From Pseudisothecium myosuroides (taxonomy: Eukaryota > Streptophyta > Bryopsida > Hypnales > Lembophyllaceae), in contig OX637287.1 in assembly GCA_951799445.1 (NCBI GenBank), forward strand, positions 5,456,001 to 5,520,000: DNA of 64,000 nt, given 5' to 3'. The notes under the pieces were generated by a model, which saw nothing but the letters and a program-made list of their open reading frames with translations, searched no databases and was not told the origin of the DNA. This document shows, in pieces, positions 3,294 to 41,040 of this stretch (within the stretch, counting starts at the first letter, position 1; the number at the start of each line of letters is the position of its first letter). The position numbers were made by a program, and so were the translations under genes.

Positions 3294-3362
3294 GGCCGAT
3301 GCACAATTGTTTTAGTGCTTCACAATTGGGGCCTTTGGGTTGCGGCGGACGACCTTACCTAC

Positions 3363-3878: not shown

Positions 3879-3886
3879 GTCCTCAT

Positions 3887-7079: not shown

Positions 7080-8349
7080 GGAGGTGTGAGCTCCAAATTC
7101 GTCACTTGGGACTCATAGTCTTCTTTTTTTCCTAAATTGTGCAATTTAAGTCGTAATTATATACAAAAAGCCCTAAAAAAAGTGTAAAACGAGAATGGGC
7201 ATGTTACATACCAATGTGCCCTTTGGTCTTAAATAGCCTTTTCTCCTTAGAATAGCCCTAAAATCCACTTGTAAATAGGTTAGAACCACAGAAGTAGTGG
7301 GAACTAGAAGGTTTGAGGGTTCTTACCCAAAACAGCTTAAAATCACTGTGCATGTGACCCGGCTTGGCTAAAATTGGTCTGAAGGAAGTCTAGGGAGATT
7401 TTTAGATAGATTCCCCAAGAGAGGTTTCAGTTTTCCCATCCCATCGATGAATAGTAGAAACCCCAATTGTTAGCTTGCAGGTGTCACTTTCGCAAGACAG
7501 GCCAGTGGAGGAATCTACGGTCACCGGATTGTGATCTTGGGTCGGACCCGTACCGGGAAGTCAAAAGTGAAATCCATTCGCCAAAATTCCCCTGTATGCG
7601 GAAGATTCCCTGACTGCCGGTAAACCAACAGAGGTATCTTTTTGCCCTCCGTATCAAGACATGCAAGATCAAGATGTGAACTTGAAAATCTCTTGGGAAA
7701 CTCCATGAGAGGTTCCCCAAGAAGTTTCGGAATTTTCTGGATTGAAGAAATACCCCTTCCGAACGGTCAACCGCCTAAAAACACGATGGGAAATTCACGG
7801 TAATTACCCAGGTGGCGGTAAAATCTCACTAAGAATTAAGTTAGCTTCTTTTATGCTAATAACGTGCCCCGACAAGTTTCATGGTGTTTCAATAGCAGGA
7901 GACGGCCGAATCACCGACATTCCTTCGAATTATCCACGTGGCGGGATTTACGTGGAGTTGACCGGCGTCCAAAGAGCACACAAAGTCGGAACGAAGTCAA
8001 TGAAGGGTCTTTTCTTACTCCCTAAGACCTCTTAGACCACCCTGGCTAGTCACCTTTGTCAGAAAAGGTAACCTCCAAAAAATAGATTTTTACCTCTTTT
8101 ATTGACTCCAGTTGGCATTAGTTTACAGTGGGATTTTGGGATTGGAATAGGGGGTAGAAGTACTCAAGGACTAAAAATGGCCTTCTGAAGCCAATGGCGT
8201 AATCGGTTTTTAATTTGGAGTTGATCTCCAATAGTTAGAGTGTTGGACCAGCGTAAAACCCAAACTAAGTGAAAATCCTAAAGATAAGGATGAAAATCCA
8301 AGTTGATAGGGTTACCTAGGTTAAACGAGAGGAGGCGAGGGCCTTGGAA

Positions 8350-8366
8350 AACCTATAAAAGGGCCC
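8350..8366 (+). promoter_or_regulatory. TATA box of LTR copy A
   Basis: ACCTATAAAAGGGCCC is conserved in copies A and C, and slightly changed in B, at 1.27-1.29 kb from the TG end. This is the pattern of an LTR U3/R promoter. Transcription would start roughly 30 bp to the right. Confidence 0.6.
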
Positions 8367-8484
8367 TCATTTTTCTCTCAATTCACCCCCATTCATGTTT
8401 TGGGTCCGTGGGTCCAACTTATGTTGGATTTTTTGGCGATTTTAGCCAAAGGCACTTCCACGGTGTTTTGAGCACGTGGTGCTC

Positions 8485-8530
<46 letters not shown>

Positions 8531-8531
8531 C
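8485..8531 (+). repeat. GTT trinucleotide microsatellite
   Basis: About 15 uninterrupted TTG/GTT units lie ~120 bp downstream of the TATA box of copy A. Copies B and C lack an expansion at the corresponding site, so it arose in this copy. The polyvaline stretch in one frame is an artefact of this repeat. Confidence 0.85.
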
Positions 8532-8964
8532 TATTTTCAACTTTTGAAGGTCTTGGGGGTCCTTCTTCCTTTGTGTTTATGAGCTTTGAGTGGTCTTGGG
8601 TATTATTTGGCTTATTTTTGAGTTACTTTGGTCATTAACTTGTAAGTTGAAGTTCTTTGCTTGAAAACACTAACTTGCTTGGGAGTTCTTTGAGTTTTGT
8701 CCTAATCCTAAAGCTCCCCCCTTCGTGCCTTGGCTCTGCCGCCCACTGGGCGGTCTTTAGTGTTTAAGGATTGCGTTTTCCAAACCGTGTGTTCATATTA
8801 ACCTCCGAGTGCTTCTCCCTTAGTCGGGGACCTCTTTTTGCTTTCTCTAAGAGCCCTTGGTGTGTGGTCCTCCCCCCCGTACGGTGGAGTTGTGGGCCCC
8901 TCTAGGGTCGTTATGTTCTAACGGTCTGGGTCCTTCTTTGAAGTTGGTTGTTGACACGTGGCTT

Positions 8965-9115
8965 CCCCCTTAGACGGCGAAGCTTTGATTCCATTGATAC
9001 CTAAGTCTTAGAGGAAGTGTTAAAAACCGGTTAGACGGCGAAGCTTCGAACTACCTCGTGTTCTCAAAGTCTTAAAGTTGGTGTTAAAACCAACTCGATG
9101 GCGAAGCTTTGATCC
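8965..9115 (+). repeat. GACGGCGAAGCTTTG repeats in LTR copy A
   Basis: Three copies of a block holding GACGGCGAAGCTT(T/C)GA and GTGTTAAAACC occur within 150 bp. Inverse copies (CAAAGCTTCGCCGTC) recur in the matching parts of LTR copies B and C, so the motif is a conserved structural part of the LTR. Confidence 0.6.
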
Positions 9116-9519
9116 CCCCCCCCGGAAGTTACGTACAAGGTTTAGTTTCCAAAACCTCTTGGAACTAATTCAAGGTTTAGTCTCCAAAATCCCCCTACGG
9201 GCTTAATTCGAGTTACTTTTTAATCCAGTTTAACTTTGCTTTGTGGGGAGCCCGGCTAGTACGCCTGGGCCCTCCCTAAAACTCTAGCCAGCCAAGCCCC
9301 AGCTAGCCGGCCGGGCCACCGCAATCCAAGGTACCGCAACAACCGGACCACCGCAGTGCCGGGCTCCACAGCAGCCAGGCCGTAGGCCAAATTTTTTTGG
9401 TCTTTTTCTCTTTCTTTTTTTTGACCTTTTTTTGGTAGTTTAGGTTCTAGAGAAGAAAAGAAAAAGGAATGATAAAAAAGGGGGGGGATAAAGCTAGAAT
9501 CTAAATAGTAGAAGAAGAA

Positions 9520-9625
9520 ATTAGCATAGTAGAAGTAGAAATTAGCAAAGTAGAAGTGAAAATTAGCATAGTAGAAGTAGAAATTAGCAAAGTAGAAGTG
9601 GAAATTAGCATAGTAGAAGTAGGAA
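9520..9625 (+). repeat. 21-bp tandem repeat in LTR copy A
   Basis: ATTAGCAAAGTAGAAGTRGAA-like units start at 9,520, 9,541, 9,562, 9,583 and 9,604. The Ile-Ser-Thr-Ser-Thr frame on the opposite strand is a translation of this repeat and not a gene. Confidence 0.85.
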
Positions 9626-10524
9626 AGTAAAATAATAGAGGAAGGGATTTAGCAAAAGGACGTGTAAGACAAGATGTTGTAGGGTTGGAAAAGGAACTCG
9701 TGTTGAAGCACCAAGTAACCTGCAAACTCACACAATCACTCCACGCACAACTCACCCAAACTCTCCACACACTATAACCAAAAACCTTGAGCATTACGAA
9801 CAAGGAGGAAGATGAAATAGGAGAGAAGCATGTTAGTGGATGGATTAGGGGAAATTTCAACTAACAAATTTGGACCATTGAGAGAGCAAGTGTAAGAATA
9901 AAAAAGAGTGTGCCCTTGGGATGTAAGAGAAAGGTCAATGCGTAAGCACTTGGGTAGGTCAAGGCGTAAGAGGTGAAGTCAACGCGTAAGAACTTTGGAA
10001 GGCAAAGTCGGTTGGTGTAAGAAGGGGTGGAAAGAAGGAGAAGAAAGAAATCCCACCACATCTACCACTTCGTTCTGAAATCTTCTCCGATTCAAGAATC
10101 ACTCAAAGAGCCAAGAATCCAAGAGGAAGGGACATGGCCGAGGGGGAGAACCTTGACCGTTTGATCCAAGACCTCCAATATGAGGTGAGCCCCTAAAAAC
10201 CCCACTCTTATTTGTTAAAATTCGTCTTATTTTAGGTAATTAGAAGAAGGCCGAAAGCTAGAGTAGCATAGACCATAGGTCACGTCAGATTTAGGTTAGG
10301 AGGAAGGAAGTAAGGATCTAGGGGTTTCCAAAAACCTAAAACAAGTCCAAATCCGAGCTAAAACGAAGGAGTTATGAGCGGATGAAGTTAGGGAGTCATG
10401 TTGGATGAAACCTAACAAATTTCATCCAAGAGGAACAAGAAAGCTAACATAAAAAGAGGGATTAATTTAGGAACCGAAAGTTAAATTAGAATTTAGTTTT
10501 GAAATTAAGGCTAGCCATAATTAG

Positions 10525-11025
10525 CGGATGAAGTTTGAAAGACCGATTAGCGGTCAAACTTCATCTATGGATAACTTTTGATAGGAAACCCCAAATCTAA
10601 TGTGGTTAGTCAAAGTAGAAAGCTAAAATCAAGATCTCCTCGGAACAAGTCTTAAGTTTCTAAGATTAGTACATTAGTAACCACACTTAAAATCCTAAAG
10701 TAAGATTAGAAGGCGGATTAGGGACTTTTAAGATTAAGTTTAGGTTAAGTATAGATTTAGAACATCTTAGAACAAGTTTAAGGTAACCCAAAACTAAACC
10801 CAGCTTAAGGAAATACCTAAACCCCAAGCAGTTAAGAAGGGATGAAGTCCGGAATAAGTAATGGATGAACCCTAGAAGATTTCATCCATTTGAGTCAAGA
10901 CTTGGTAATTAGGTTAACCTTAGGGGGTCAGGCTCATAGCCCAAATCCCAAGTCAAATCAAAATCCGGAGTCCATAGAAAAGCATGGATGAAGTTTGAAG
11001 AACCGAGTAGCAGTCAAACTTCATC
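10525..11025 (+). repeat. Hairpin-forming inverted repeats in LTR copy A
   Basis: GGATGAAGTTTGA is followed within ~20 bp by its inverse TCAAACTTCATC at about 10,527-10,565 and again at 10,984-11,023. The short loops contain CGATTAGCGG or CGAGTAGCAG. The same hairpins occur in copy C at about 35,158-35,200 and 35,620-35,660, so they are conserved in the R-U5 part of the element. Confidence 0.6.
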
Positions 11026-11383
11026 CATCCATAACTTTCTCTAGGAGAGTCCAATTCAGACAAGCTTTATACTTTTAGGAATGACATGAGGTGCTCTTTC
11101 AATTAGGATAGATAAGTTTAGACTAAGACTAACTCTTCTCCCAAATCACCAAGCCCTTTTAGGCTTTGATTCAGACTTAGCAGTTATAGCAATTCTAATT
11201 AGGGTTTTGTTTTGTTTTCTTCATTATCTGAATTAGCGAGTTTTAGGAGCATAGAAAAAATCAATTTCTTGGAAGGTACAATGGATTGGCGCTAGACACC
11301 CATAGATCGAGTCAGAATGGTTATTTATCGAGAGTCTGGTTGTGCTCGCTTCTTTATCAAGGGTGGGTAAACAAGCACTCACA

Positions 11384-11764
11384 GGAGGCCTCCCTCTTCA
11401 CTCGACTGAAGGGAAGGGTTTGAAACGACGACGGCAAGGATCGATGGGTTGTAAAAGTCTCAGCGCAAGAAGATCTATTTGACTCTAGTACTCCATATGC
11501 CCTGTATTTTTCGGATTTCAGATGCCAATACCTGTCTTCAGTTTCTGAAACAGGGAATTGACCCATGCTATAAGTGACGTCCCCAGTGTCGGCATCAAAA
11601 ATGTCTTCTTCTACGTGAATCGACTCTATCTTTAGATTGAACCATACACTTAATCTACAGGCTAAAACCATGGCAAGACCATCCTGGCCCAGTGGAAAAA
11701 TGACTGGAACGTTGTCTCCATTTGCACTAACGACTACCATGTCCTTGAAGTCTACTCGGGCCAT
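11384..11764 (-). pseudogene. N-terminal coding block of the MULE-like gene
   Basis: An ATG at 11,764 opens 127 codons that run to the edge of the LTR-like insertion at 11,383. The last native codon is the TCC formed by the target-site copy. The block contains the run DMVVVSANGDNVPVIFPLGQ and a hydrophilic stretch with FDADTGD. No named domain was recognised. Codons beyond 11,384 belong to the insertion. On the far side of the insertion the frame resumes exactly at 7,079, so this is the upstream part of the same reading frame and not a separate gene. Confidence 0.6.
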
Positions 11765-12150
11765 CGATTGCTATTTGGCGGTATGAGAACCTTGGTTAGG
11801 ATCACTTGTAGCCAGATAGAAGTGTTACATGACAATAGACGCCAATAGAAACAGGTGGGCTGACTTGTTGCTGCGGAGGTACAGAGGTACTACAAAGGAA
11901 AGGTCCATCAAGAAACAACAAATGTCAATAATCAATGGAGAATTACGAATGTCTAATAGGTAGTACAGTAGGTAGAAGTTCACTTTTGAAATGCAAAATG
12001 CAGTTTGACGGCTAAGTGATAATTAACTACCTGGTGATAGTGTATATCATGAAATGCAGAACCCGGTACCAGCCGCCTAATATGGTTATTCATCACCAAT
12101 ATAATAAAGGAACTGACTACTTAGCATTAGACAATAATGGCAGCCACTTT

Positions 12151-22794: not shown

Positions 22795-23660
22795 TCTCAG
22801 CATCAACACTATTCGGACCTCTAGGAGCTCTTGCCCAATTTTGACCTTTATGTGGTAGTTTGAGGGACCACATTCTTGAAATTTCATGTGATGGTGTACT
22901 TGGATCATTAATCTTGAGTCATGGTTTAGTTGTGTTGGCATTCAAGATTTAGCGAGGACTTTGTTTCCGGACTCGCATATTCATTGGTACTCGCTTCGCC
23001 ATATACATGGAGGTTCCTGAGCCTGTTGCGTTAAGGGATTTCCATGTTGCACTGGCTACTGGTATTTTGATATATCCAAGTGGTTCTTGAGGCAGTCTCG
23101 GCGCCGAGACCCTTCAGGACGTGAAGAAGCTCTTGACATTTTATGCTCTATGTATTACCCCGTGGCTCACGCTTTCCATTTTTTATTTTTTATTTGTTGT
23201 CAAGTATGAATTATGATGGGGGGAATGCAAACTTCTGTGTTCCTTTGTTTGGTTCTCCTCGTGCAACTTATATGGATGTACCTGAGCTTCGTATCCCTTG
23301 TCCCATAGAAGCATTCCGTGGGAAGGTTTGTATATAGCTGACATCTCCGTCCATAGAGTCTCGGCACCGAGACCCTTCGACATATGGGTACCTCTAGCGC
23401 AATTCTGAATCTGGGATCGTAGTCTACCAACGCTGGTTTCCAATTTTGGTGGGATATCCTGTCGCTACGATTTTCAATCACATGTTTCTGGCCTCATAGG
23501 TTTTGACTTAATGTTGATTTGACCAAGGTGCGGCGACATGGTTCTCACTGAGCTCAACTCCCATGCATTTCCTAGAATTAAATTGTTTCTTCTGGCCGCA
23601 GGCTTCAGTGTATGGCCAGCTCCTTTACTTTAGGAGTCTCGGCACCCAGACTGTTTGTCA
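22795..23660 (+). repeat. Array of GTCTCGG/CCGAGAC palindrome units, part 2
   Basis: Further units lie near 22,795 (decayed), 23,094, 23,359 and 23,634 with the same trailing GCTCTT/GCGCAATT context as part 1. With LTR copy B removed, parts 1 and 2 form one array of about 3.5 kb. The array ends shortly before the first clear exon of the ParB-methyltransferase relic. Confidence 0.7.
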
Positions 23661-24660
23661 TAGGTGGCCTTCTAGTGTAATTTGGAGTTTGTGGTGAAGG
23701 CATATTGGCAGCACGGTCTCCACTTTCATACGCCACGGCATTCTTATTTGCACTTGATTGATTCTGTTCTCGTTTGCTGAAATTTAATCACGGGTGGGAG
23801 TATTGAGTAGCTTGCAATCCATATTCTATCGTGCTGGGCGTAAAGCACACATAATTGATTTTGTTGCAACTGAAGGTGCTGGTGACGCCATTTTCCTATC
23901 GTGTCTTTGCATTCTCTGAATTGTCTTGGTCTCCGGGTTTAGGTGTGCAGGAGAGGCCTTTGGTTCGGGATATTGAGGAAGGTGCTACAGAGGAGGCCCA
24001 CATTGTCATGGCCGAAAGTGAAATGGCCTCACTACCTCCGGTAAGCCGCCAAGGATTACTGCTAGATCCCGTGTCGATAATAGATGACTTTCCAGATAGA
24101 GGAGTGTTTTCTTCTAAGGACTCTTCATGCACCTCAATAGGGGAGAATCTGCTAGAGGAGATAAACTCATCTCCTCCTCATAGCATAGAGTTCTGCACTA
24201 GTGATCGCATGGACTTAGAGGTCACATCCAGCCTTGCATTGGATGATGACATATTGATTGATTATTGTGGTCATTATATGCCTTTCAGCGAGAGGTGCAC
24301 ATGTGGTCTTTGAGGTGGTCCAACAATCCAATGCAAATGCTTGTAGATTTGGATTATGATCATTAATATTTGTAATTATCTATTGGATCACTCATCTCCC
24401 GTGTCAACATGCCTATATATTCCAAACTTCTACACGTATTTGATTGGGATGCATAATCGAGTTCTAATGTCTACTACTCTGTTTTGGTTCAGACATATAT
24501 AGAGACACATGTAGGATCTTTGTCAAAGACACCTACTCCTACAGTTACAGATGGTGTTCCACAACAGCCAGTCCAGTTCCCGTCCATCAATGACTTGGAG
24601 GAAGACAAGAACTCGGGATCGGGTGGCGAGTTGATGGAGGACGACATAAGGAAGTCTCAG

Positions 24661-25151
24661 AGAATGGATATTGTTTCCATTATTGCGAGCTTGAAGTTGA
24701 CATCATCATATCAGTCCATGATGAAAATCCCCTTATGTCAAATGATACCCATGCTAATGGTTAGGCCTACTTTAGATTGTGACCTTGTGCAGCTTGAGAA
24801 CCACTTCGCATAGGAATATGAAGAAGGTGCCAGAGTCTTCTATGTGTCCATTGCAGACGAGCAAGGGCAGACTGGCGTGTTCTCGGAGGCAGAGAAAACA
24901 GAGTGGGATCCGCTGTGGAACCAAGTGAATGACAAATTCAATGCCCACCTCAGTGCCCACACTGCGCTCAGGCATCTTGTGGACCACAAATTCTATGTTT
25001 GCGACGGCAATCATAGGAGAATAGCTTGGATGAATCACATTAAGCGCAAGCACTCTGCCAACATTGATTGGCACTATGCTGTAGACTCTATTGTTCTAGA
25101 CACGAGGAGTCAAATCAGCACTACTATGCAAGCTATGCACGACATTAACCA
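24661..25151 (+). other. ParB-like domain segment
   Basis: The conceptual frame reads RMDIVSIIASLK, IPLCQMIPMLMVRPTLDCD, an amber codon at 24,811, then FYVSIADEQGQTG and finally HKFYVCDGNHRRIAWMNHIK. In ParB N-terminal domains, a strand with an R-containing segment and a later V-x-DG-x-HR motif bind CTP or form the nuclease-like fold. The spacing here is longer than in classical ParB because of a ~50-residue insertion, so function cannot be deduced. Confidence 0.5.
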
Positions 25152-26412
25152 GTAAGTTCTTAATCAACTCTAGAAGGTGGACTTGTCGATTTTCGTAGTC
25201 ATTGTCGGTTACATATGAAATCTAACGACCTTGTGACCTAAATGTTGTGCAGGCAAACCGAAAATTCGCACGTCAAGACCAACCTCGTGCACACGCTATA
25301 CGGAGTGCAAAAGTATGGTCTCATGGATCTTGAGAAGTTTCACGAGCTTTTGAGCACCGAGGAAATTAAATATTGCAAAAATACTGCACACAAAACATGG
25401 TACTCAATGCCCCTCGAAGTCTTCACGACATTCATCTTCAAGGTATGAAGTTTAATTTTGTTTCTAATTTCCTATACTTGCATTGATCTATACATCAATC
25501 AAGAATAATTTAAATTCTAATTCATTGTTTGGCCCATACCAGCAAGAGATTTCAGAGTTGGCGGACCTTGCTATACGAAAGTATCACGAGGATACTCCAA
25601 AAGACGACGTCACCCCGGATGGTGTTACTGCAGCTATGAGGAAATCCATCAAAGATTCCACAGCAGATGTCATTTTGACAGAAGATGTCAAAGATCACCT
25701 CCGTGGCGGCTCTACACTTAGGTCCGGAGTTCGTACAAGAGGTAATGTTTTATTCCGCATGCCCTTGGGGTAGTGGTAGGGCATTCAACTTTCAGTATAT
25801 TATCTAATTCCACATGTCTGTGATCTTACAGATTGAGCGGCATTGGAGTCTTTTCACGGTTCCGGAGTTAACCCTTGACAAGCTGCAGATTATATCATCT
25901 GCCATTGTGTCCTCTCCCCACAAGGTGAAATGGCTAAAGCCGATGAATGCATCTCCTCCTACAAGAGAAGCTCGCAAAATGCCAGCCCGTCTGATGAACG
26001 AGGACAAACTGTTGTTGTTCCTGGCAAAGGCTGTTTGGTATGCTGGGGTAAGGATATCTTCATTTCTCTTTCAATTTTAGTTGTTAGGCTAGTATTCTTA
26101 TTCATTTGTGAGCTTATAATTTTTTGGGATTTGCAAATATTGCTTGATTCATTGCCATGTACCATGCACATTGCAGCTAGAGGATGAAGCTGTGACACTC
26201 TTTGAAACCATTCGGAAGGGCAAAAATATTCCGATAAATATGGATGTAGAGGCGGAGCCGCAAACGCTACCAGAATATTTGGAGGAATGGAGAATGAAAC
26301 TATGGGATATAGCCTACACTGGCGCGTTCAAGGAAAATGATTACTTCAAGAAGTTTGATACTTTTATTGAGTTTCGAGGAACTGCCCTCGCAGTGAAGCG
26401 ACTGCTCTACAT

Positions 26413-27184
26413 GTACTATATTTGTAATTTGATCGTCAATATTATCAATTGCGTACAGCCTCCATAGAGGGCACTTCATTCAACCAATTGATCAATTGTT
26501 TGAAATAAGTGAGCACATAAATTGAATTTGGGACCTTCATGTTCCGCATTCTCAGTACCATGGAATGCAATTCGGTGTTACCATCAATGAGAGGCAGCCT
26601 CAAGATCGTTAACTTTTGCAGGTTTAAAAAGAGTATGTTTAAATGAGAGTCCTCCCTAAAGCCCCAAATTAGAGCCCTACGGTAAGGAGAGGCAGATTTT
26701 GCTCCATTCACCAAATATGAGGGATTGAAATCAACTTCGAGATTCTAGGGGAGGACTGGAAAGTTGCATGGTGTCCACCTATAGAACACTATAAAGAGAG
26801 TCTCAGCACCAAGACCGTCTTCCATGGGGTTACCTCGTACATTACTTCATTGATTTATAGGGTACTACATTTAGTCGCTGAAATTTCAAGTTGGGATTTG
26901 GATATATGATTTGTTAGAGACCACGCAATCTATGCAAGTATCTCGGTACCGAGACGCCTTCTACGGGCGCTCACCACTTCTCATAATTCTTCAAAATAGT
27001 TTTGGCCATTGTATGTCGTGACCCGGAGGCCGCAATGATCCATGAGGTTTAGGATCAATGTTAAAACCTTGGTACTGAGAGGGTGTCCAAGGGGGGGCTT
27101 CTCATGCATGGAATTATGCATGAAATTTGGTATTAAATTTTCAAATATATGAATTCTCATGCTTGTTGAAAATGACAATTTCAG
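26413..27184 (+). other. Intron of the ParB-methyltransferase relic with two palindrome units
   Basis: Donor GTACTA after CTCTACAT and acceptor TTTCAG join as L-Y-M-Y-I-K in frame. Units of the GTCTCGG/CCGAGAC family occur at about 26,799 and 26,940. The same repeat family is therefore in the introns of this relic, in the MULE intron, and in the array at 15-23.7 kb. Confidence 0.6.
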
Positions 27185-29027
27185 GTACATAAAGTTCGAA
27201 TTATATGACAAGAAGGCGATAATGAAGGCGGACTTACCACCGATCCTTACGACATGGTTGGACAGATCGTTGGACGACTGCATGTTTTCGTCTTCCCAGA
27301 TGCACCTTTGGCCCTCTCCGCATTTACAGGCATGTCCATGGTACCTCGAGTGCAACTTCGGCACCACTCCGCCTCAAGAGGAGGCCCTATTCAAGAGACT
27401 AAAGGAAACCTCCGACCACGAGCCAGAGTTTGATGAATTTGCAGGACTTGATCCCGAGGCTCGAGCTAAAGTAATTGCGAAAAGGGATGCGTCTAACAAG
27501 AAGAAGGAGGAGAAAATGGAAGAGGCCAAGAAGAAGGTAGAAGACACCAAGAAGAAGCGTATGGCAACGAAGGCGGAGAAGGAGGAAGAGAAGGCCATCA
27601 AGAAGGGGATTAAGCGGAAGGGCGAGATGCCCTTACTTGAAGCAGCTACAAGTGCAGCAGAGGTGAAGGATACTTCGTCCGGTTTCTCACTCACGTAGGA
27701 GCGACTAGTGCACGGTTTGACACTGACTGCTCAGAACATCGACCCCGTCCCCGACGTCGATGAGTGCATCTTGAACTTCTCTTTGAATAATCTCATGGAT
27801 CATGTGAAGGAGCATAAGAAGGTCGAGGCCTTCTTGGCCATGGTAAGTTCACTAGATTTTGTCATTGCTTCGTCTTTCTATGATTCGCTTTCCGATTTCA
27901 GTTCACCATTAGGGAACTTCTTCTGGATCTTACATGTGGTCCACATCCTCAATGTGAGTAACTGAAACTCATAATCATTCTAATATTCTTTTCAATGCAT
28001 GTCCTTGGTATCATTCCAACGACAAGGATCGCTTCTTCGATGGTAAAGTAAGCACACAATCTGTTGTCGACATGATCATTGTCGACATGCCGGAAGGCCT
28101 CCATGTGCCTACCATTTTTGCACCGCCAGCACCTATCCCCAAGTGGAATGAGTTGAACCAGGATTGGCTCCTAGCCGTGTTTGATCTAGCCCAAGAGTAC
28201 CTGCATGACAAAGGCGGGATGCTTAAGATTTACCCTAGCCTTTCTAGAATGCACCGAAGCAAGCTCAAGGGCTTACTTGAAGAATATAAGTTCCGGATAC
28301 TCAATACTTACTTCAGCAACAACCACCTCCATCTTACATTAGCACTAGATCCAACTAAAACGGTAAAAAAGCTTATCCATCTTATTTGTTCAACTTTTGC
28401 TTGTTTTCTTCATGTACGAGATTCTAACTTACAATCTTCTGCAGACAAAGCGCTTCTCCATCTCGTTGTTGGTCAAAGACAGTGGCCCAAAGACTCCATC
28501 AGATTTCCCATTCCAGTTTGTTCCATCCCATCACGCAGTTGGGGTCACCGTGGGCAAGGACGACATCCTCACCAACCTCTGCTTCAAAGAAGACTTGACC
28601 ATGAACGGGGACATACCTTGGCGAGGCCCTCGGAAGAAGGCCTGATAATTCATGCAGATGTTAGTAGAGGCCTTGACGGAACCGGGAGACGTTGTCGTCG
28701 ACTGCATAGCGGCCACAAGTATTTTTCATTCATTGTTTACTTCAGGATCATCAGTACTGCGCCTAAAACCTCATATTTCCATGTTGTTTTCTAATATTTC
28801 CTGGACATGATTGCAGGATCCACTATTCAAGCCTGCCGCGCCACGCGTTGTCATATATTGGCTTTTGAGGAGGACAAGGCTATCTTCAATGCCCTTATCG
28901 CTCCAAGCATGCGCACAACTATACTAGTTTGCCCACCACCGCCACAACCAGAGCTAGACATTGTGGACTTGGCCGAGGAGGAGGACATACCTACGCAGCC
29001 CGTCAAGAAGACATCTCAATTCAATAA

Positions 29028-29575
29028 GTAAGTTTTACTTTGATGTACTTGTTTGTTCACTATGATTCACCAAACTCTCTTGTATTCTTATAATTTTTTA
29101 GCTGTGTGGGAGCACGGAAACTTAGAATAAAGGAAGATAGCATAGAAATAGGTTAGGAGTTAGTTAAAAATTTCAAAACTTTGGTAAGAAATAAGAAATT
29201 AGATCCGGATACAGATAGATTCCGGATAGTTAGAATCCGAGATTTCAGATCCTTTAAACCGGATTCTTTCGAGAGCAGGAACAGATCTTAAATCCGAGTT
29301 AGGTCGGATCGGAACGAGCTACAGAATAGGTATCCGACCTACGCTGCTAGGGAACCGTTACGGGAACGGACCTCTTTCCGTTCGCCAAGGGGAACGGTTG
29401 GCAGCTCGATTAGTACTTAAACCTTCGCCAGACCTAATCTTCCTCATTCTTCACTTTGCTGATTGTCTTGCGCACTTAGCTGAGAGAAAGAGTGGTGAGT
29501 TAGAGATCGCGACAGGGAGAGACGGGTGAGGTCGGTGCCGATTGCACCGGATTTAGTAGTCGGTGTCGGTGAACT
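29028..29575 (+). other. 5' region of the CCGGA-rich element
   Basis: After the last splice donor of the methyltransferase relic an acceptor-like TTTTTTAG lies at about 29,102. Beyond it the sequence changes in character, becoming rich in TCCGGAT-like words. This part probably is the untranslated leader of the following gag-like frame. No direct terminal repeat was found to mark the element boundary. Confidence 0.4.
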
Positions 29576-31477
29576 ATGGCGGAGTCCAGCAAACCGGTAG
29601 CGCGCCGACCTTCTGTCACAGCTCGGATAGTTAGACCGGCTATTCCCACCGACCCAACGCACCGGAAGGAATTAAAGACAGATCTGACCCGGATGGGGTG
29701 CGTAGGTTTGATCCACCGACCGTGGAATGTTAAGGACACGGAGATGCTGGAGCAGCTGATCTCAGGGGTCCCAAATCAATTCGAGTTGACTGTAAGAGGC
29801 CAACCCGGAGCATGGACGGCGGATGTATGGGCTGACGTATACGGGTTTGAGAAGAACGGTTCCGGATTAGGTTCTCGGGTAGAGACGTACGGGATTGGGA
29901 AGTTTCGTAATCCAGTTACCACTAAGGACGGATACCCAGTGAGTGACTGTAAGGACGCTAGGCAGAAACGGGTGTTGGAATTTTTGATTCCGATCATGTA
30001 TCCGGAAAAGCCCACCCGAGTTACGGTTACGGTGGCCAACACTATCTTTGGGGCTTTAGAAGATAAGGTAGTCCATTGGGGGAAAGTCCTAGCCGTTATA
30101 GTAAAGAAACTTGTGTCGCACGTAGGGAAGGGGAAGCCGAGTCTTCTCAGTCTGTACCTGTTTCACCTGTACCACCATCAGGAGGTGCTGACTAGTGAAG
30201 AGGTGGTGATTTACAACACCGGATTGGAAATAGTAAAGTACGGTCTCACGCACGAAATTCCACCGGATACTCCAATCGAGGGAGAAGAGGAGGAAGAAGA
30301 AGAAGACGAGGACGAGGAAGAAGAAACGCAGCAGCAAGACCTGGTCGACAAACGGGAGAAGAGAAGGAAGTCGACCAATCCGAACTCGAGAGTGGAACAG
30401 TTGACCCCGGAAAAAGGAGAGCCGAGTCAACCCCCGGAACCGGAAATGCAGTCGGACTTCTTCGACGCCGGAACGCAATGGATGGAGGAGGCCAAGCACA
30501 TGTATTTCGAGATGTCAGACATGATCCTGGGGATTGCTGCGGAGCTGAAGGTGGAGCCGGAAGATATCATAAATCAGATCCGGAAACTACCAAGCCCGGA
30601 TCTGATTCGTGAGAAGGACAAGCAAATCAAGAGCTTGGAGAAGGAAAGGGATGACCTGTTAGGTCGGGTGAACTGGTCGGATACGGATGCCGCAGTTGCA
30701 CGGCAGAAGGAGACGGAAGCTCTCCAACTCGTCCACAATTTGACCGCGTTGGTGGAGCAGCCCGCAGAAGCTGTTGTCAAATCCCGACTCTTCAGCAATC
30801 AGCTGAGTGGCATAGGCCACTTATCCGGGTCCAAGGTGGTAACGATCTTGGTGGACTTCCAAGCCTGGATGGAAGGTATTTTGAAGGAGATGGCGCAACT
30901 GTTGGGGCACCTCGACCCGAACAAGCCCTTGGACTTCACCCACTTTCCGAAGCTGCCCAATGTCGACTTGTTGAAGACGCCCCAGAAGCCGGGGCAAGGG
31001 ATCGGTCTACCGGCATCTCCAAGACCTACTCCAGGTTAGGCACAGATCCAGACAAAGACCACTAAGTTCGGCCAGACGAGGAGTATCCAGTCAATTCCGG
31101 TAGTAACAGGGAGTACCGTTCCGACATCTGGAACATCCGTCTAGAGCAATTTAATCCACCGGATGGGGGCCTTGTCAAACCCAGCTCGGACCAATCCGGT
31201 CGACTTTACTCATATGCAGAAGGCATCGCCCAAGAAGAATACAACACCGATTCAGCTGGACGATTCACCCGAGAGAGAGACCAAAGTGGAGATGATCTAG
31301 GAGTCTGAGAAGGGGGAATTCACTTCCGGGGACGAGACGGCTTTAGATGACGACCCGCCGCCGATCAAGCGGAAGATTCCGACCCGGGCTGCAACGAAGT
31401 CCACTCCACCGAAAGGAAGCAGGAAACCTCCTGCAGGGCCGAGTAGTAGCTCGAAGAAATCAAAGCAAGGAAAGTAG
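29576..31477 (+). pseudogene. Gag-like frame of an unclassified CCGGA-rich element
   Basis: An ATG at 29,576 opens 487 codons to a TAG at 31,037. The same frame stays open for a further 146 codons with only two more ambers (31,142 and 31,298), up to a final TAG at 31,475, giving 633 codons in all. Visible parts are a basic N-terminus, a globular region with W-rich segments (WADVYGFEKNGSGLG), an acidic run of Glu/Asp at about residues 235-255, a coiled coil (KDKQIKSLEKERDDLLGRV), and a basic, Pro/Ser-rich tail (KRKIPTRAATKS, SSSKKSKQGK). The layout is gag-like, but no zinc knuckle, protease or polymerase was found. Codons such as CCG-GA are unusually frequent. Family not recognised. Confidence 0.55.
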
Positions 31478-32435
31478 TTAGTATATTTGCAGTATTAGGA
31501 TTTTTAATCTGGAGCGGATTTTTTGTGCGTGGGGCCCGGTTCCGGATTCTTAGGAGTAGTTGACTTTGAACTTTTCGGATATTACGGTTGGTTACTGATT
31601 GGTCACCTGGATTTTCAGGTGTTCTTTTTTTGGCTTTTTGTTTGGGCTTTTTAAGTGGAGGGCAGCTTGTTGCCCTTTCATTCCAGCCTTGCCCATTTTG
31701 TGTGCATTTGATTATGTTCATATTCTCTTTTCTCTAATCTGAGCCACTAAGTGGACATTCGGATTTCTGGCTATGTGCGTTTTCTTAAGTCATTTATGAA
31801 TGGTGAAAGTGTGAGAGAAGGCGGATGAAGGGGAATCCGGGTTGAGAATTAGTTGGACCTGATTTGAGCAAGTAAGTTTGTGAGGAAACTTTACTAGACT
31901 TGTGAGTAAGGACTTGTGCGTGGTACCTTTAAATTGCTGTAACGGTGATCCGGTTCTAAGGAGTGGTGCGGATGCGAGTCCGGAATCCAGGGAGGGTTCC
32001 GAGCGGAGATAAGCGACCGCCAGCGAAAAATCCCCATTCACCGGAAGGTCTGCCAACCATAGGATCAGTCTGGTAGATAGATGCACGAATCTTTTTTCAG
32101 TCCCGGCTGCCTTGATCTGTCGTTGTAGTAAAAGTGGGAGGATGCAATTCTGAGTGACCTGTTTTTCGAGCAAGCTACCCGGGGAATTGTGAGGATTATT
32201 ACTTTCTCTATTCTACAATAAAAACTCGGTTAGGATTGTTTTGTGTGAAGTTTTGTGCAGAGAAATAGATGTCTATGAGTGGTGTGTTCCTACCCCTCTA
32301 AAGATCAAATGCGGACACCCTGAAGGTAAAACAAGGGAATAGAAAACCAGTTGAAATTAAGAAGTGAAACCCGGAATCCGGATCAAACCGGAAACCGGAA
32401 AGGGATAGATCCGGATTGGGATCCGGAAGACTATT
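31478..32435 (+). other. Non-coding spacer inside the CCGGA-rich element
   Basis: No protein-like frame was seen. TCCGGA words continue to be frequent, so this stretch belongs to the same element as the frames on either side. Confidence 0.45.
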
Positions 32436-32885
32436 GTGTCAGAAATAGGAAAAGAAAGAGGTGTTGCTTGGGGTTTTGTTGTTTTGATTACAACCCGGAT
32501 ACTCCTCAACTTGCTGAAACATACTAGAATCTCCTGGGATGATATTTCGTGTTATCTTATCATCTTTTTGGTGTTAAGGATACTTACGCCTAGATTGCGC
32601 GTACGACAGGCTGGACTGTGTAGGAAAGCCAAAGAATTGAAGTGTTGTTAGACCGTTCCTTTCTTCGCGAATCCAGCTTTTTTTCCTAGCCCTCCTAAAG
32701 CATTTCAGCTACCTGTGTACGTTGAGGCTATTTGTAGGGATTTTGTGACCCGGAATCCAAGACCCACTTCTAGGGCCTATTCGGTAGATCCTCGTGTGCT
32801 TCGTTTTATAGATGATTGTGCCGTGGAGTCAGACTTGTAGACATCAGATAGTGAGGAAAGTTCGACTTCCGACTTGTGTATGTAA
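32436..32885 (+). pseudogene. Small frame with two hydrophobic segments
   Basis: The frame from 32,436 reads about 150 codons to a TAA at 32,883, interrupted only by two TAG codons (32,649 and 32,838). Residues ~10-27 (VAWGFVVLITTRILLNLL) and ~40-52 (CYLIIFLVLRIL) could span a membrane. The tail contains SVDPRVLRFIDDCAVESD and a Ser/Glu-rich end. As in the gag-like frame, both stops can be explained by CAG to TAG. The first codon shown is a TTG/GTG-type start region, so the true start is uncertain. No family recognised. Confidence 0.35.
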
Positions 32886-33199: not shown

Positions 33200-34795
33200 G
33201 CACCTGCCAAATCCTTGAAGACTGCCCCCCCGTACCTTGTTCAAGGGGGCGCCCGCCTCCCAAGTGAAACCCCTACCTACACCACCTTCTCAGTCTAAGT
33301 GATGGGATGGGCCCCCCGCTAGATGGATGTGGTATTCCTTCCACGCTGCCCACCTCAACGGGGTGGACAGACCCTCCTCCCTACCAACCTAGAGGAGCTA
33401 GACAGCACTTCCCCCAGATCAGACTGAGGTTCTCGCTGTCTGCCCTCCTTGCCCTTCCCAATGGGCTGGGCAGCTAGCCCACCCTGGCCAACTTGGGTGG
33501 CTTGATCCCCTCCCACCTTGCCCGCCTTCAGTGGCTGGGCAGCCACACAACCTTGCCTTGCTAGAGGGGGTGGTTAGCTCGGACTCCCTTCCCTACCTTA
33601 TTCGAGGGTCTGAGTAGCTTAGAATGCGTGCTCGGCCCTATTTGAGGGGCAGGGCAATCCGACCACCCTAAACTGCCCAGCTCGAGGGGCTGGCCTACCC
33701 GGCCAACCCAGCTTGCCTAGCCCAGTTGGGGGTGGCCTACCCTGCTCAGCTCGAGGGCTTACGGCAACTAGCCTTTGGGCCTTACTAAGCTCCTCGAGTT
33801 GGGCTGGGCTGGGCAACTAAGGTAGCCTGCTCTGCCCAACTCGAGGAGAGCGGAGCTCGGCCTCCCTACTCTACTCAACTGGCGAGGCTGGGCAGCCCGG
33901 CCTCCTTGCTCAGTCCAAGTGGAGGGGATGGGCAGCTCGGCCTCCCTGCCTAGCCAAACTGGAGGGGCTGGGCAATCCAACCTCCCTGCCTAGCCTAACT
34001 CGAGGGGCTAGGTAGCCTGGCCTCCCTATCCTATTCAACTCAAGGAGTTGGGCAGCCCAACCTTTGTGCCCTACACTGCCCAGCTCCACTCGAGAGGTTA
34101 GACAACCCGGCCTTGCTGCCCTGCCCAAGTCTAGGGGCTGTGCAGCCCGGCTTCCGTGCCCTGCACTGCCCAGCCCAACTCGAGAGGTTGGACAGCCCAG
34201 CCTCCCTGTCCTACACTACCCAGTCCAACTCGAGAGGCTGGACAGCCCCGCTTCGCTGCCCCGCCCAATTAGAGGGGCTGGGCAGCCCGGCCTCTTTGTC
34301 TTGCACTGCCCATCCTAACTGAAGAGGCTGGGCAGCCCGGCCTCCCTGTTCTACACTGCCTAGCCCAACTCGAGAGGTTGGGCAGCTCGGCCTCCCTGTC
34401 CTACACTGCCTAGCCCAACTCGAGAGGTTGGGCAGACCAGCCTCCCTGTCCTACACTACCCAGCCCAACTCGAGAGGCTGGGCAGCCCGGCCTCCCTGCC
34501 CAGACCAACTCGAGAGGTTGGACAGCCCAGCCTCCCTATCCTATACTACCCAGCCCAACTCGAGAAGCTGGGCAGCCTGGCCTCCCTGCCCAGACCAACT
34601 CAAGGGGCTGGGCAGCTCGGCCTCCCTGCCTAGCCCATCTAGAGGGGTTGGACAGCCCGGCCTCCGTGCCCTGCCCAGTCGAACTTTAGGGGCTGGCAGC
34701 CCCTCGAGATCGCCCTACCCACCTCAATTTGAGGGATTGGCAACCTGGCCTCCATGCCCTACCCTATCGAACTTGTGGGGCTGGCAGCCCTTCAG
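33200..34795 (+). repeat. GC-rich CTCGAG minisatellite, part 1
   Basis: Irregular units of about 40-55 bp share GGGCAGCCCGGCCTCCCTG and CCCAACTCGAGAGGTTG. Order and length vary (some units contain TCCTACACTGCCCAG). The Pro/Ser-rich open frames on both strands are translations of the repeat. The array continues at 39,185 after LTR copy C. Confidence 0.85.
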
Positions 34796-34800
34796 ACCGT

Positions 34801-37800
34801 TGTGAGCACTTGTTTACCCACCCTTGGTAAAGAAGCGAACACAACCAGGCTCTCGATAAATAACCGTTCTGACTCGATCTATGGGTGTCTAGCGCCAATC
34901 CATTGTGCCTTCCAAGCAATAGATCTTTTCTATGCTCCTAAGACTCCCTAATTTGGATAATGAAGAACACAAAAACAAAACCTTAATTGAATTTGCTATA
35001 ACTGCTAGGTCTGAACAAAGCCTAAGAGGGCTTGGTGGTTTGGGAGAAGAGTTAATCTTAGTCTAAACTTATCTATCTTGAATGGAAGAGTACCTTATGC
35101 CATTTCTAAAAGTATAAAGCATGTGTGATTTGGACTATCCTAGAGAAAGTTATGGACGGATGAAGTCTAACCGCTACTCGGTTCCTCAAACTTCATCTAT
35201 GTTTTTCTATGGACTCCGGATTTTGATTTGTCTTAGGATTCGGGCTATGAGCTTGACCCCCTAAGGTTAACCTAATTACCAAGTACTGACTCAAATGGAT
35301 GAAATCTTCTAGGGTTTATCCATTACTTGTCCCGGACTTCATCCCTTCTTAACTGCTTGGGTTTTAGATATTTCCTTAAGCTGGTATTAGTTTTGGGTTA
35401 CCCTAAACTTGTTCTAAGATGATCTAAATCTATGCTTAACCTAAACTTAATCTTAAAAGTCCCTAATCCGCCTTCTAATCTTACTTAAGGATCTTAAGTG
35501 TGGTTACTGATGTACTAATCTTAGAAACTTAAGACTTGTTCCAAAGAGATCCTGATTTTAGCTTTCTAATTTGATTAATCACATTAGATTTGGAGTTTCC
35601 TATCAAAAGTTATCCATGGATGAAGTTTGACCGCTAATCGGTCCTTCAAACTTCATCCGCTAATTAGGGCTAGCCCTAGTTTCAAAACTAAATTCTAATT
35701 TGACTTTCGGTTCCTAAATTAATCCCTTTTTTTATGTTAGCTTTTTTGTTCCTCTTGGATGAAATTTGTTAGGTTTCATCCAACATGACTCCCTAACTTC
35801 ATCCGCTCATAACTCCTTTGTTTTAGCTCGGATCTGGACGTGTTTTAGGTTTTCGGAAACCCCTAGCCCTCTACTATAAGATTTTAAAGTTAATTCTAAC
35901 CTTACTTTGCTTCTTGCCTACCCTAGCTCTCAGCCTTCCTAACAAGTGTTCATTCTTTGGAGATTTCGAATTCAAGGAGGGATTTTAGGGACCCACCTCG
36001 CCTTGGAGATTGCGAATCAAGTCGCTTAGGTTTCCCCCGGATGCCATTTGGGGTGACTTGCGCTTTTGTTTGTGGAAGTGAGAACGTGTATTATAAATTC
36101 CAACTTTGTGTATCTTGCTATTCTCTTTTCCTTTCCCCTCGATCTTTTTCTTTCTACACTATTCCCTTACATGCCCTTAATGCCTTCCAACTACCCTCAA
36201 TAATGCGAATGACGCATTTGTTTCTTTTTCTCTTACGCAAAGAGCAATCGATGGCTCACAATGCCTTGTGGGATTTTTGTTAATCTACACCCTATTCATC
36301 ATCTTCCCTACTAAAGCATTCTTCTTGGTTGTCCTTCTCAAGCATTGTTTTGTGCTTGTGAGGTATGCGAGTGTTTTCGTTGAAGAGGCATGTTTTGATT
36401 AGGTGTGAGCGTGTGGTGTGTGAGGGCTTTCTTTCCTCCAATTAGTGGAGTCTCCTCAACCTAACTGCTACTTCTTCCTCTTCTATTCTCCTCCTTTTAG
36501 CAACCCTCCCTACCTTGATTAGATTCCTCCTACACTGCTTCCCCCTCTAATTTCTACCCTAACCCTTCCATCCCTTGCATTTATATTCTAGCCTAATCTA
36601 CTTCCTAATCTTGAGTTGTTGGCGTTTAGGAATGATAAAAAAAAGGAATAAAAAAAAACCAAGTTCGGGGCTTGGAGTGGGGCGGAGCAAGGCCTGGAGC
36701 GGGGCAGAGCAAGGCTGCTGCGGGGCGGAGCAAGGCGGAGTGCGGGAGCCTCCGGGGAGGGCCGGGCTGATTGCCACGTGGCGGCGCCGGATTGCCGAGC
36801 TGCCGGGATTGCCGGGCTGCCGGGCCTGCCTGGCTGCCGCAACTGCTGGGCTGCCGACTGCTTGGCTGCCTGGCTGCCTCGGCTGCCTGATACTGGGGCT
36901 GGGTTGCCAATACTGGGGCTTGGGCTGCCAATACTGGGCTGGGCTGCCGAATACTTGGGCTTGGGTTGCCAAATACTAGGGCTTGGGCTTGCTGAATGCT
37001 GGGGGTTTTTTGGGGTCTCGGGCTGCTTGGGTTTGCCAGGCTGCCTTAGTCACAAAAAAGACCAAACGGAAACCATATAAAGAGAAAAAAATAGAAAAGA
37101 ACCAAGGAAAGGAAAAAAAGGGGAGGGCCCCTTCCTTTCAGGGGAAAAAAATCCTTACTAGCCTAAGTAACGTCTGTCCTTTGTGATCACTACATGAGGG
37201 TAATTAGGTGGGGGAACTTGTTTGTCTAATCTTTTGGACACTAAACTTTGGTTAGCTTCCATACTCTTTTGGAAACTAAACTTTGGGCATGACAAGCGGG
37301 GGCGTTCAAGGCTTCGCCGTATTCCGGGTTTTAACACCGGATTTGGGACTTCTAAAAAGACTCTTACAGTCAGAGCTCCATCGTCTCGGCGTTTTAACAC
37401 ACTAATTGGGACTAACCAACGTAACCAGGTTCAAAGCTCCGCCGTAGGGGCTAAGCCTTGCTATTACCACCACCTTAACAACACAAACAAACAAACAAAA
37501 AGATCAACACCACTTACTACCGAGGGTAATGAATCGAACTGAGTTAGTGACCGCTCACTGTTAGTTCTCTCAATGACTCATACTAAAGGCCCTCCAAAGC
37601 GGCATCGCCAAGGTACGGTGGGGGGTACTTTAGGTTTAATGCAAGGATTTAAAATACTCAGAAGGACCTCCTTAATCACAAAGTACGGCAATTAGAACCT
37701 AACTTGTACATCCCAACTTGGAAGAAAACACCTCAAGGAAGATGAGAGCTCGAGAAAGTACAACAATGAGGCCAAGAAGTGCCCCAAAAACACCGTTCAA

Positions 37801-39179
37801 GGTTTTTGACTAAAATGCCAAATATCCACGATCACGTGGACCCAACGGACCCCAAAACAAGCATAGGGGGTGGCTTTGAAGAGAAATGAGGGCCCTTTTA
37901 TAGGTTTCCCAAGGCCCTCACCTCCCCTCTTTTAACCTAGGTAACCCTATCAACTTGGATTTTCATCCTTATCTTTTAGGATTTTCACCTATTTGGGGGT
38001 TTACGCTGGTCCAAATCTCTAACTATTGGAGATCAACTTCAAATTGAAAACCGATTGCACTATTGGCTTCAGAAGGCCATTTTTAGTCCTAAGTTTCTCC
38101 TACCCCCTATTTCAACACCAAAATCCCACCGTAAACTATCGCCAACTAGAGTCAGTAAAAGAGGTAAAAATCTACTTTTTGGAGGTTATCTTTTCTGACA
38201 AATGCGACTAGCTAGGGTGGTCTGGGAGGTCCTAGGGAGTAAGAAAAGACCCTTTGTTGACTTCGTTCCGACTTCATGTGCTCCCGGGATGCCGGTCAAC
38301 TCCACATAAACCTTGCCACGTGGATAATTCGAAGGAATGTCGGTGATTCGGCTGTCTTCCGCTATCGAAACACCATGAAACTTGTCGGGGCGCGTTATTA
38401 GCATAAAAGAATCTAACTTAATTTTTAGTGAGATTTTACCGCCACTTGGGTAATTACCGTGAATTTCCCATCGTGGTTGTAGGCGGTTGACCGTCCGGAA
38501 GGGGTATTTCTTCAATTCAGAAAATTCCGAAACTTCTCGGGGAACCTCTCATGGAGTTTCCCAAGAGATTTTCAAGTTCACCTCTTGATCTTGCATGTCT
38601 TGATACGGAGGGCAAAAAGATACCTCCGTTGATTTACCGGCAGTCAGGGAATCTTCCGCATACGGGGAAATCTTGGCGAATGGATTTCACTTCCGACTTC
38701 CCGGTATGGTTCCGACCCAAGATCACAATCCGGTGACCGTAGATTCCTCCACTGGCCTGTCTTGAGAAAGTGACACCTGCAAACTAACAATTGGGGTTTC
38801 TACTATTCGTCAATGGAATGGAGAAACTGAAACCTCTCTTAGGGAATCTATCTAAGACTCTCCCTAGACTTCCCTCGACTTCCCTCAGACCAATTTAGCC
38901 AGCCGGATCACATGCACCATGATTGTAGGCTATTTTGGGTAAGAACCCTCAAACCTTCTAGTTCCCACTATTTCTGTGGTTCTAACCTATTTACAAGTGG
39001 GTTTTAGGGCTATCCTAATGAGAAAAGGCTATTTAGGACCAAAGGGCATATTAGTATGTAACATGCCCATTCTGGTTTTACACTCTTTTTAGGGCTTTTT
39101 GTATATAATTACGACTTAAATTGCACAAATTTGGAAAAAAGAAGACTATGAGTCCCAAGTGACGAATTGGAAGCTCACA
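34801..39179 (-). mobile_element. 4.4-kb solo-LTR-like element, copy C
   Basis: On the minus strand it starts TGTGAGCTTCC (from 39,179) and ends GTGCTCACA at 34,801. ACCGT flanks both sides (34,796-34,800 and 39,180-39,184). Its TATA box lies at 37,893-37,904 on the minus strand, 1.28 kb from the TG end. It aligns with copy A along its length in inverse orientation, with differing tandem repeats in the middle. It inserted into the CTCGAG minisatellite. No gag or pol is present. Confidence 0.82.
36660..37060 (+). repeat. GC-rich minisatellites in LTR copy C
   Basis: Two short-unit tracts follow each other: GGGGCGGAGCAAGGC-like units (36,670-36,745), then GCCGGGATTGCCGGGCTG and TTGGGCTGCCAATACTGGGGC-like units (36,790-36,990). 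All open frames on both strands here are repeat translations. Confidence 0.8.
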
Positions 39180-40560: not shown

Positions 40561-41040
40561 CGCAAATGAGAGGTCCACCAATTCTAATGGCGAAGTGTAC
40601 TCTTGCTAATTTTAAATCAATCCATAATTTTTCATCCATTGTCATCCATATTTTTCATCCACTTTCATTCACATTTTCATCCACTGTCATCCATAATTTT
40701 CATTTATTTTTTCTAATTCCTTTCATCCATTTTTTCCAACAACTTTCTTCCATTTCTTCCATTGAATTTCAGGAATTTCTCTGAAATTTCATCCATTTTT
40801 TCGTCAACTTTCATCCACTTTTCTATCCATTTTTTCCCACTTTTTTGGTTTTCCTTCTAATATTTCAGCTCCCCGCTCACCAATCCCTGCTTCCCGCTCT
40901 ACACTCGCTCCCCAGCATTCCCCTAAAATTACCAAACTTTTTGCAATCCTTGTCATTTCTATCAATGTACCTCTAAAAAATATTTGTTTTGCCTTCACTA
41001 CTCCAGATCATGTTAGAATCTCTTATTTGGTCGGTTATGG
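40561..41040 (-). repeat. Second copy of the GGATGAAAG dispersed repeat
   Basis: On the minus strand this reads an AAAACAAAT-rich start, then a GCGAGTGTAGAGCGGGAAGC-like patch, then many GGATGAAAGT/GGATGAAA words. This is the same order as 1,842-2,400 on the plus strand. The plus-strand frame of Ser/His/Ile residues is a repeat translation. Confidence 0.55.

Follow-up and report, generated by a model that had tools for sequence, protein, structure and literature searches.

What is a gene that joins a ParB-like domain to an amino-methyltransferase-like domain, in many exons, doing in the genome of a moss? A preliminary description had placed such a gene in a stretch of 64,000 nucleotides of Pseudisothecium myosuroides (GCA_951799445.1, contig OX637287.1, positions 5,456,001 to 5,520,000; hereafter the window, whose own numbering is used below). 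We find that the gene is almost certainly cargo of a transposon. Our reading as a whole, which we hold with good confidence, is that the locus represents a decayed accessory (cargo) gene copy in a large, probably Mutator-like DNA transposon, predicted to encode an altered methyltransferase with a putative role in self-recognition or anti-silencing of the element. The cargo gene sits wholly inside a 39-kb transposon at 1914-40923, which is made up as follows.

1914-40923, no strand: whole transposon including nested insertions, 39 kb; supported by colinear blastn matches to copy A and by its matching ends
1904-1913, no strand: left target-site duplication TAAAATTACC, identical 10 bp at both edges
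40924-40933, no strand: right target-site duplication TAAAATTACC
2077-2351, plus strand: left subterminal array, 8 copies of TGGATGAAA
40630-40817, minus strand: right subterminal array, 6 inverted copies of TGGATGAAA, layout as in copy A
2162-3886, minus strand: region homologous to copy A 6018-7709, the 3' transposase part with SWIM-like CxC...CxH (SWIM seen in copy A only)
5566-7079, minus strand: transposase; zinc-finger part 5856-7079 without stop, MADSA...CLFHW part 5566-5865 with 2 stops
11390-11767, minus strand: transposase 5' part, separated from the rest by the nested insertion around 7080-11385

Across the 388-Mb genome (222 contigs), 321 bases of exon 8 of the cargo gene match 27 places at 73-100% identity; the 26 places besides the window were also compared, and two of them were extended as copies A and B. 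Over about 19 kb, copy A (C8:21676078-21695314, 19.2 kb) and copy B (on C2) share 93-96% identity; blastn blocks between 1914 and 40926 of the window are colinear with copy A. Copy A is flanked by a target-site duplication of its own (AAACAAAAAA, 10 bp), and a 10-bp duplication is present in two of the three elements whose ends were both read (the window and copy A). Both element ends are imperfect inverted repeats with the inverted subterminal arrays inside them. The TGGATGAAA word occurs 21 times on the two strands of the window versus 1.2 expected, most of the remaining 7 lying in nested insertions, while in copy A the first 650 bp hold 11 forward copies, the last 410 bp hold 9 inverted ones, and the stretch between them has no copy. 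Many of the array steps measure about 22-23 or 45 bp, and copy A carries longer tandem repeats between the two genes and near its right end.

Linkage to the transposase points the same way. A transposase query gave 42 matches at 40 places (40 of 162 candidates being scored), and at 19 of the 27 methyltransferase places a transposase lies in the same orientation 7.7-47.5 kb upstream. In 2000 rounds with shuffled positions and strands the mean number of linked places was 0.12 and the largest 2 of 27; the cargo gene and the transposase therefore belong to one element. Together with the 39-kb element and its target duplication, this bears out the earlier suggestion that the gene had spread as, or with, a transposon. 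The reading as an ordinary plant gene was rejected in view of the multi-copy state inside an element with target duplications.

The transposase gene is long and lies on the strand opposite to the cargo gene. By eye, and with motif names assigned in the same way, it has a cysteine-histidine zinc finger, a D...D...CxxH pattern, with N for the first D in copy A, and a CxC...CxH resembling SWIM; we take the D...D...CxxH pattern to be typical of Mutator-like element (MULE)/IS256 transposases. Between the window and copy A, nonsynonymous and synonymous divergence (dN and dS) of three pieces amount to 0.10/0.84, 0.12/0.80 and 0.24/1.58 (dN/dS 0.12-0.15), values which argue that this gene is under purifying selection between the two. 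Since the 10-bp duplication and inverted ends accompany weak transposase profile support, we call the element probably MULE-like, not a proven MULE; target duplications of MULEs are reported as 8-11 bp (PMC6446971), a range met by the 10 bp seen here.

Other repeats lie within the element. An inverted pair of 90-92% identity (7085-8492 with 37787-39179, and 10318-11383 with 34801-35866) looks like a single nested insertion, about 4.3 kb long, present twice; the transposase gene is split by one of the two copies. A GC-rich tandem array at 33826-34793, with units of about 40 to 240 bp (CTGCCCAGCCCAACTCGAGAGG...), stands roughly where copy A has its own array.

A ten-exon model (E2-E11) fits the cargo gene, whose parts in the window, together with the open stretch before them (E1), are listed below.

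23945-24313, plus strand: E1, open stretch with the C-terminus ...CTCGL-stop; stop common to the copies compared, weaker constraint
24493-25151, plus strand: E2, ParB-like domain; in-frame TAG at 24811
25003-25020, plus strand: DGNHRR, site resembling the ParB P motif
25253-25442, plus strand: E3; borders recur in copies
25543-25741, plus strand: E4; frame of the window copy unlike that of other copies
25832-26047, plus strand: E5
26177-26412, plus strand: E6
27185-27842, plus strand: E7, with charged linker; in-frame TAG at 27696
28027-28362, plus strand: E8, methyltransferase motif IV region
28084-28098, plus strand: motif IV position, DMPEG where (D/N/S)PP(Y/F/W) is usual
28445-28718, plus strand: E9, sequence leading into motif I; TGA TAA at 28643-28648
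28700-28833, plus strand: motif I across the E9/E10 junction, DCIAATRSTIQA; G for R in 8 of 10 copies listed
28817-29028, plus strand: E10
29103-32620, limits approximate, no strand: repeated insertion within intron 10, unclassified; holds a 488-amino-acid open frame at 29573-31039
32624-32885, plus strand: E11, last exon, behind the intron 10 insertion; in the window copy it has two in-frame stops, the first within the aligned match and the second, read by eye, just after it

The DGNHRR exon and the methyltransferase-like segments of the preliminary description are present where it had put them: DGNHRR is encoded in E2, DMIIVD...GGMLKIY in E8 and PGDVVVD...STIQA...EEDK across E9-E10, and motif IV (28084-28098) precedes motif I (28700-28833). 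Its count of about eleven GT-AG exons stands in part. All eight introns from E2 to E10 are GT-AG, with exon borders that are largely the same in other genomic copies (a few of which have altered donor or acceptor letters), but the first exon ends in a recurring stop and the gene continues to E11. Because that stop recurs in the copies compared, E1 may be the terminal exon of a small gene of its own; constraint on it is weaker (dN 0.26-0.59 vs dS 0.42-1.68 in 8 pairs). Alternatively, this cysteine-rich stretch, directly 5' of the ParB exon, could be an alternative last exon or an upstream frame. The damage in the window copy comprises in-frame stops in E2, E7, E9 and E11, the E4 frame difference and the intron 10 insertion.

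Two further observations concern non-coding parts of the gene. DNA 80-95% identical to the intron 10 insertion lies in inverse orientation near the copies L017, L018 and L019, and palindromic words resembling GTCTCGGCACCGAGAC recur, by eye, at 23000-23700 upstream of the gene and at 26780-26960 in the 772-bp intron 6.

Is the first domain a ParB fold? A relative from outside this genome, P0007, is 53% identical over 95% of the query, and its N-terminal part models as a ParB fold; on this model of a relative we conclude that the N-terminal domain of the cargo protein has the ParB fold. DGNHR, which we take to be the ParB P motif, is present in at least 106 of the 120 relatives examined; among 78 aligned rows N199 and H200 are invariant and D197, G198 and R201 occur in at least 90%, and the conserved arginine of this P-motif-like site adjoins the GxxR box. 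Compared with viral structures, the ParB model finds an uncharacterised protein of Cafeteria roenbergensis virus at the top (E-value 1e-4) and a phage DNA methylase in fifth place (8e-3). ParB folds are described as binding nucleoside triphosphates (NTPs), many of them as DNA clamps (PMC12704722).

For the second domain the evidence comes from profiles. After splicing, the methyltransferase part has Pfam N6_N4_Mtase matches in all eight copies tested (best E-value 8.6e-7; the first of these members scores 26.6 bits vs the Pfam cut-off of 26.7) and the DNA-methyltransferase family PHROG_3008 in eight of eight members (best 8.1e-9), and DpnA in the PDB is matched at 0.0036. The outside relatives P0131 and P0127, both of which end in or before motif I, gave no N6_N4_Mtase match. 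Motif IV, assigned by eye, lies in E8 and motifs X-I follow in E9-E10, and from profile and motif order the domain is judged to descend from the beta class of amino-methyltransferases, where motif IV comes ahead of motif I. The proposal that one spliced gene of a eukaryote unites a ParB-like domain with one like amino-methyltransferases is thereby supported: of the analyses that had been proposed on joined exons, the profiles returned N6_N4_Mtase and the PHROG DNA-methyltransferase family but not Pfam ParBc, and structure modelling of the relative P0007 gave a ParB fold. A Pfam match of the raw E8-E9 frame to the IS200 family (Y1_Tnp, E-value 9.3e-5, at the cut-off) was rejected, being partly intron read-through, and fell to 0.12 after splicing.

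The catalytic motif of this domain is not the usual one. Motif IV reads D(I/L/M)PEG in 18 of the 27 copies, with one or two changes in 8 more and 1 unreadable, and D(V/I/L/M)PEG in 10 of the 11 outside proteins examined, which were taken from the 12 that the methyltransferase profile matched; the form (D/N/S)PP(Y/F/W/H) occurs in none of the 27 copies (1 of them unreadable) and in none of the 11 outside proteins. Since it is non-canonical across copies and outside proteins alike, the change is a trait of the family. Motif I, usually of the form DPFxGSGTT, reads DCxAATGST in 5 of the 10 copies listed and differs from this by one or two changes in the other 5, a glycine being replaced by R or C in the window copy and in L033. 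Ordinary methyltransferase chemistry has, on these motifs, probably been lost or changed.

How far has the family decayed, and is it constrained? A search for intact copies in the same genome had been proposed. Among the 27 places that were aligned, E2-E10 is free of stops and keeps the family frames in 4, of which 2 have a stop-free E11 as well, and 23 show stops, odd frames or missing parts in E2-E10. Among 20 pairs tested with E4 left out, the 12 cross-subfamily pairs (dS 0.95-1.51) have dN/dS of 0.13-0.19 over the gene and 0.14-0.24 over E8-E10, these being pairwise values from a sample in which most copies are partly broken. Such ratios argue that the cargo gene family is under purifying selection. 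The preliminary description had called the window copy inactive and both its catalytic motifs damaged; the in-frame stops and the E4 frame difference agree with an inactive copy, but the non-canonical motif IV is shared by a family under selection and is therefore not damage in the window copy alone.

Relatives outside this genome were gathered with two profiles. The ParB profile found 283 proteins at E-values up to 1, of which 120 were listed, and the methyltransferase profile 12 at up to 0.01, among them the hypothetical protein M758_UG251900 of the moss Ceratodon purpureus. One ParB-like protein (P0012) and one methyltransferase-like protein (P0123) probably lie on one contig, because they share a source collection and the longest contig listed for each has 4168 bases. 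At the sensitivity used, P0007 had no match in phage records and the ParB profile no confirmed relative in viral contigs or prokaryote genomes; the methyltransferase profile likewise found no confirmed relative in viral contigs. A tblastn search of the methyltransferase part against phages returned 332 records at E-values up to 10, the best among the top 15 of them (1e-3 over 30% of the query) being annotated as a DNA adenine methyltransferase. Capture from a phage or prokaryote, as had been suggested, is thus not shown, with no ParB relative in these three collections and faint phage matches for the methyltransferase part.

Two neighbouring sequences belong to neither gene. Beyond the right end of copy B (C2, stretch L040) are long open frames, presumably resembling CACTA tnp2 transposase, and outside the transposon in the window an open frame at 49959-50591 with an NAD/FAD-binding domain (NAD_binding_8, E-value 2.2e-8) is likely part of a host oxidoreductase gene.

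Genes of this kind have been described before. The 21.5-kb Sola1-1_Ec32 transposon of Ectocarpus is reported to carry a ParB-methyltransferase accessory gene for a protein of 1104 amino acids, and the same report cites green and red algal cases (PMC12477816); therefore we make no claim to a new kind of gene. As described there, both systems have ParB-like and N4/N6 amino-methyltransferase domains in one long protein, whose gene is borne by a giant DNA transposon and runs on the other strand from the transposase. They differ in carrier and host (Sola1 superfamily and brown alga there, MULE-like element and moss here) and, from a comparison of descriptions of the proteins, in that methylation is predicted for Ectocarpus whereas motif IV is non-canonical family-wide here. 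Phages, according to a survey of ParB-CTPase folds, have this fold fused to an N6_N4 methyltransferase (PMC12704722), the same two domains and again in mobile elements, but prokaryotic; the moss ParB part, by contrast, had no sequence relative in phage records. That survey gives sulfiredoxin as the commonest eukaryotic representative of the fold, and the words plant, moss and transposon are absent from its main text (PMC12704722). Among the titles and abstract openings returned by literature searches, none mentions a gene of this kind from mosses or other land plants, and by that measure the land-plant host, the MULE-like carrier and the fixed non-canonical motif are new.

Closer to the carrier, VANC of the Arabidopsis VANDAL MULEs is reported to bind short tandem-repeat motifs in its own elements and to cause loss of DNA methylation there (PMC5735166). 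It resembles the moss gene, description against description, in being an accessory gene of a MULE with tandem-repeat target motifs inside the element, and serves us as a working analogy; ParB and methyltransferase domains are unmentioned in the passages on it (PMC5735166). The mudrB gene of maize MuDR is likewise a second gene beside a MULE transposase, but the passage concerned gives its protein no function and names no ParB or methyltransferase domain (PMC6446971). Bdelloid N4CMT is also a prokaryotic amino-methyltransferase captured by a eukaryote; as reported, it differs in having an active SPPY motif and a chromodomain and in depositing N4-methylcytosine (4mC) at transposons, and it is not described there as transposon cargo (PMC8885841). 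TET/JBP dioxygenase genes in fungal DNA transposons are, by their description, another DNA-modification enzyme cargo, of another enzyme type and in other elements (PMC12730594).

What, then, might the protein do? The ParB-like module would load on the element's own repeat arrays, the methyltransferase domain would bind DNA without the usual methyl transfer, and the cargo protein would thereby help the element to escape silencing or to assemble its ends. The repeats of the element, a clamp-like domain under selection and the VANC precedent lead us to favour a self-recognition or anti-silencing factor, although by analogy we rate such a role, rather than that of a pure transposition cofactor, at slightly under an even chance. 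We regard as rather speculative the wider proposal of an old, widespread moss transposon family with a ParB clamp fused to a methyltransferase domain in which D-x-P-E-G became fixed long ago; the protein would recognise the repeat arrays of its element, spread along that element's DNA and block or rewrite silencing, so that a eukaryotic transposon would have self-recognition based on ParB.

Several results weigh against this interpretation. Pfam ParBc did not match the ParB part, the ParB-like family PHROG_1033 matched weakly (3 of 6 copies, best E-value 0.05; 22 of 78 members, best 0.03), and Foldseek of the ParB model against the PDB reached only 0.02 at best. The AlphaFold model of the methyltransferase part (relative P0131, 13 rows) had a predicted local distance difference test score of 39 and was left unused; motif I retains one usual glycine and motif IV its aspartate, so that unusual catalysis is possible. 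The 8 closer pairs have dN/dS of 0.19-0.54, higher values being expected because copies decay. As to the carrier, copy B has no matching target duplication at its two ends, the transposase pieces scanned had no Pfam MULE match and weak profile scores (SWIM E-value 0.24 in copy A; IS256 transposase 0.014 and 0.071), and at 7 of the 27 places none of the listed transposases lies within 50 kb, the distance at one more being 84 kb. Finally, the binder of the TGGATGAAA arrays or of the internal repeats may be the transposase instead.

Best placed among the alternatives, if still doubtful, is a mudrB-like role in transposition, in which the protein would bind the subterminal arrays and be needed for cutting or integration, without effects on chromatin. 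Inverted TGGATGAAA arrays with regular steps at both ends and selection on both genes would suit it, as would the report that several MULEs bear additional open frames, mudrB in maize being one (PMC6446971), but the methyltransferase-derived domain is then left unexplained.

Less likely, the protein is a DNA amino-methyltransferase that is active despite its variant motif IV and marks the element's own DNA with 4mC or N6-methyladenine (6mA), a role already put forward in print for the ParB-methyltransferase accessory proteins of algae. Conservation of D-x-P-E-G-L and of motifs X-I, the low dN/dS of E8-E10 and the activity that the Ectocarpus paper predicts for its protein (PMC12477816) are consistent with this, yet the canonical motif IV is missing from every copy and outside protein compared (0 of 27, with 1 unreadable, and 0 of 11), the motif present lacks both the aromatic residue and one of the two prolines, and in most of the 10 copies listed alanine replaces the first glycine of motif I. 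In bdelloid N4CMT, changing SPPY to APPA is reported to abolish 4mC addition (PMC8885841).

A functionless passenger, a captured gene hitch-hiking as in Pack-MULEs, which are described as carrying gene fragments (PMC6431247), would account for the 23 of 27 copies broken in E2-E10 but is very improbable given dN/dS of 0.13-0.19 at dS 0.95-1.51 between subfamilies and the occurrence of these domains, with this motif, in proteins of other origin. The reading as a remnant of a giant virus or phage that became endogenous, to which the first- and fifth-ranked viral structures might point, is hardly credible beside the 10-bp target duplication, inverted ends and transposase linkage, and no relatives were found in viral contigs at the sensitivity used.

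We thus return to an accessory gene kept by a probable Mutator-like element. ParB proteins are known in prokaryotes as NTP-gated DNA clamps (PMC12704722). Because its family is under purifying selection in such a plant element and has a relative in Ceratodon, the moss gene suggests that the ParB-methyltransferase gene is a recurrent tool of large transposons and not an algal curiosity. The conserved but altered catalytic motif further suggests that these elements keep the gene for a use other than ordinary DNA methylation, and the fixed loss of the usual motif makes a testable question of whether the protein methylates DNA or binds it, a test that mosses with laboratory genetics would permit.

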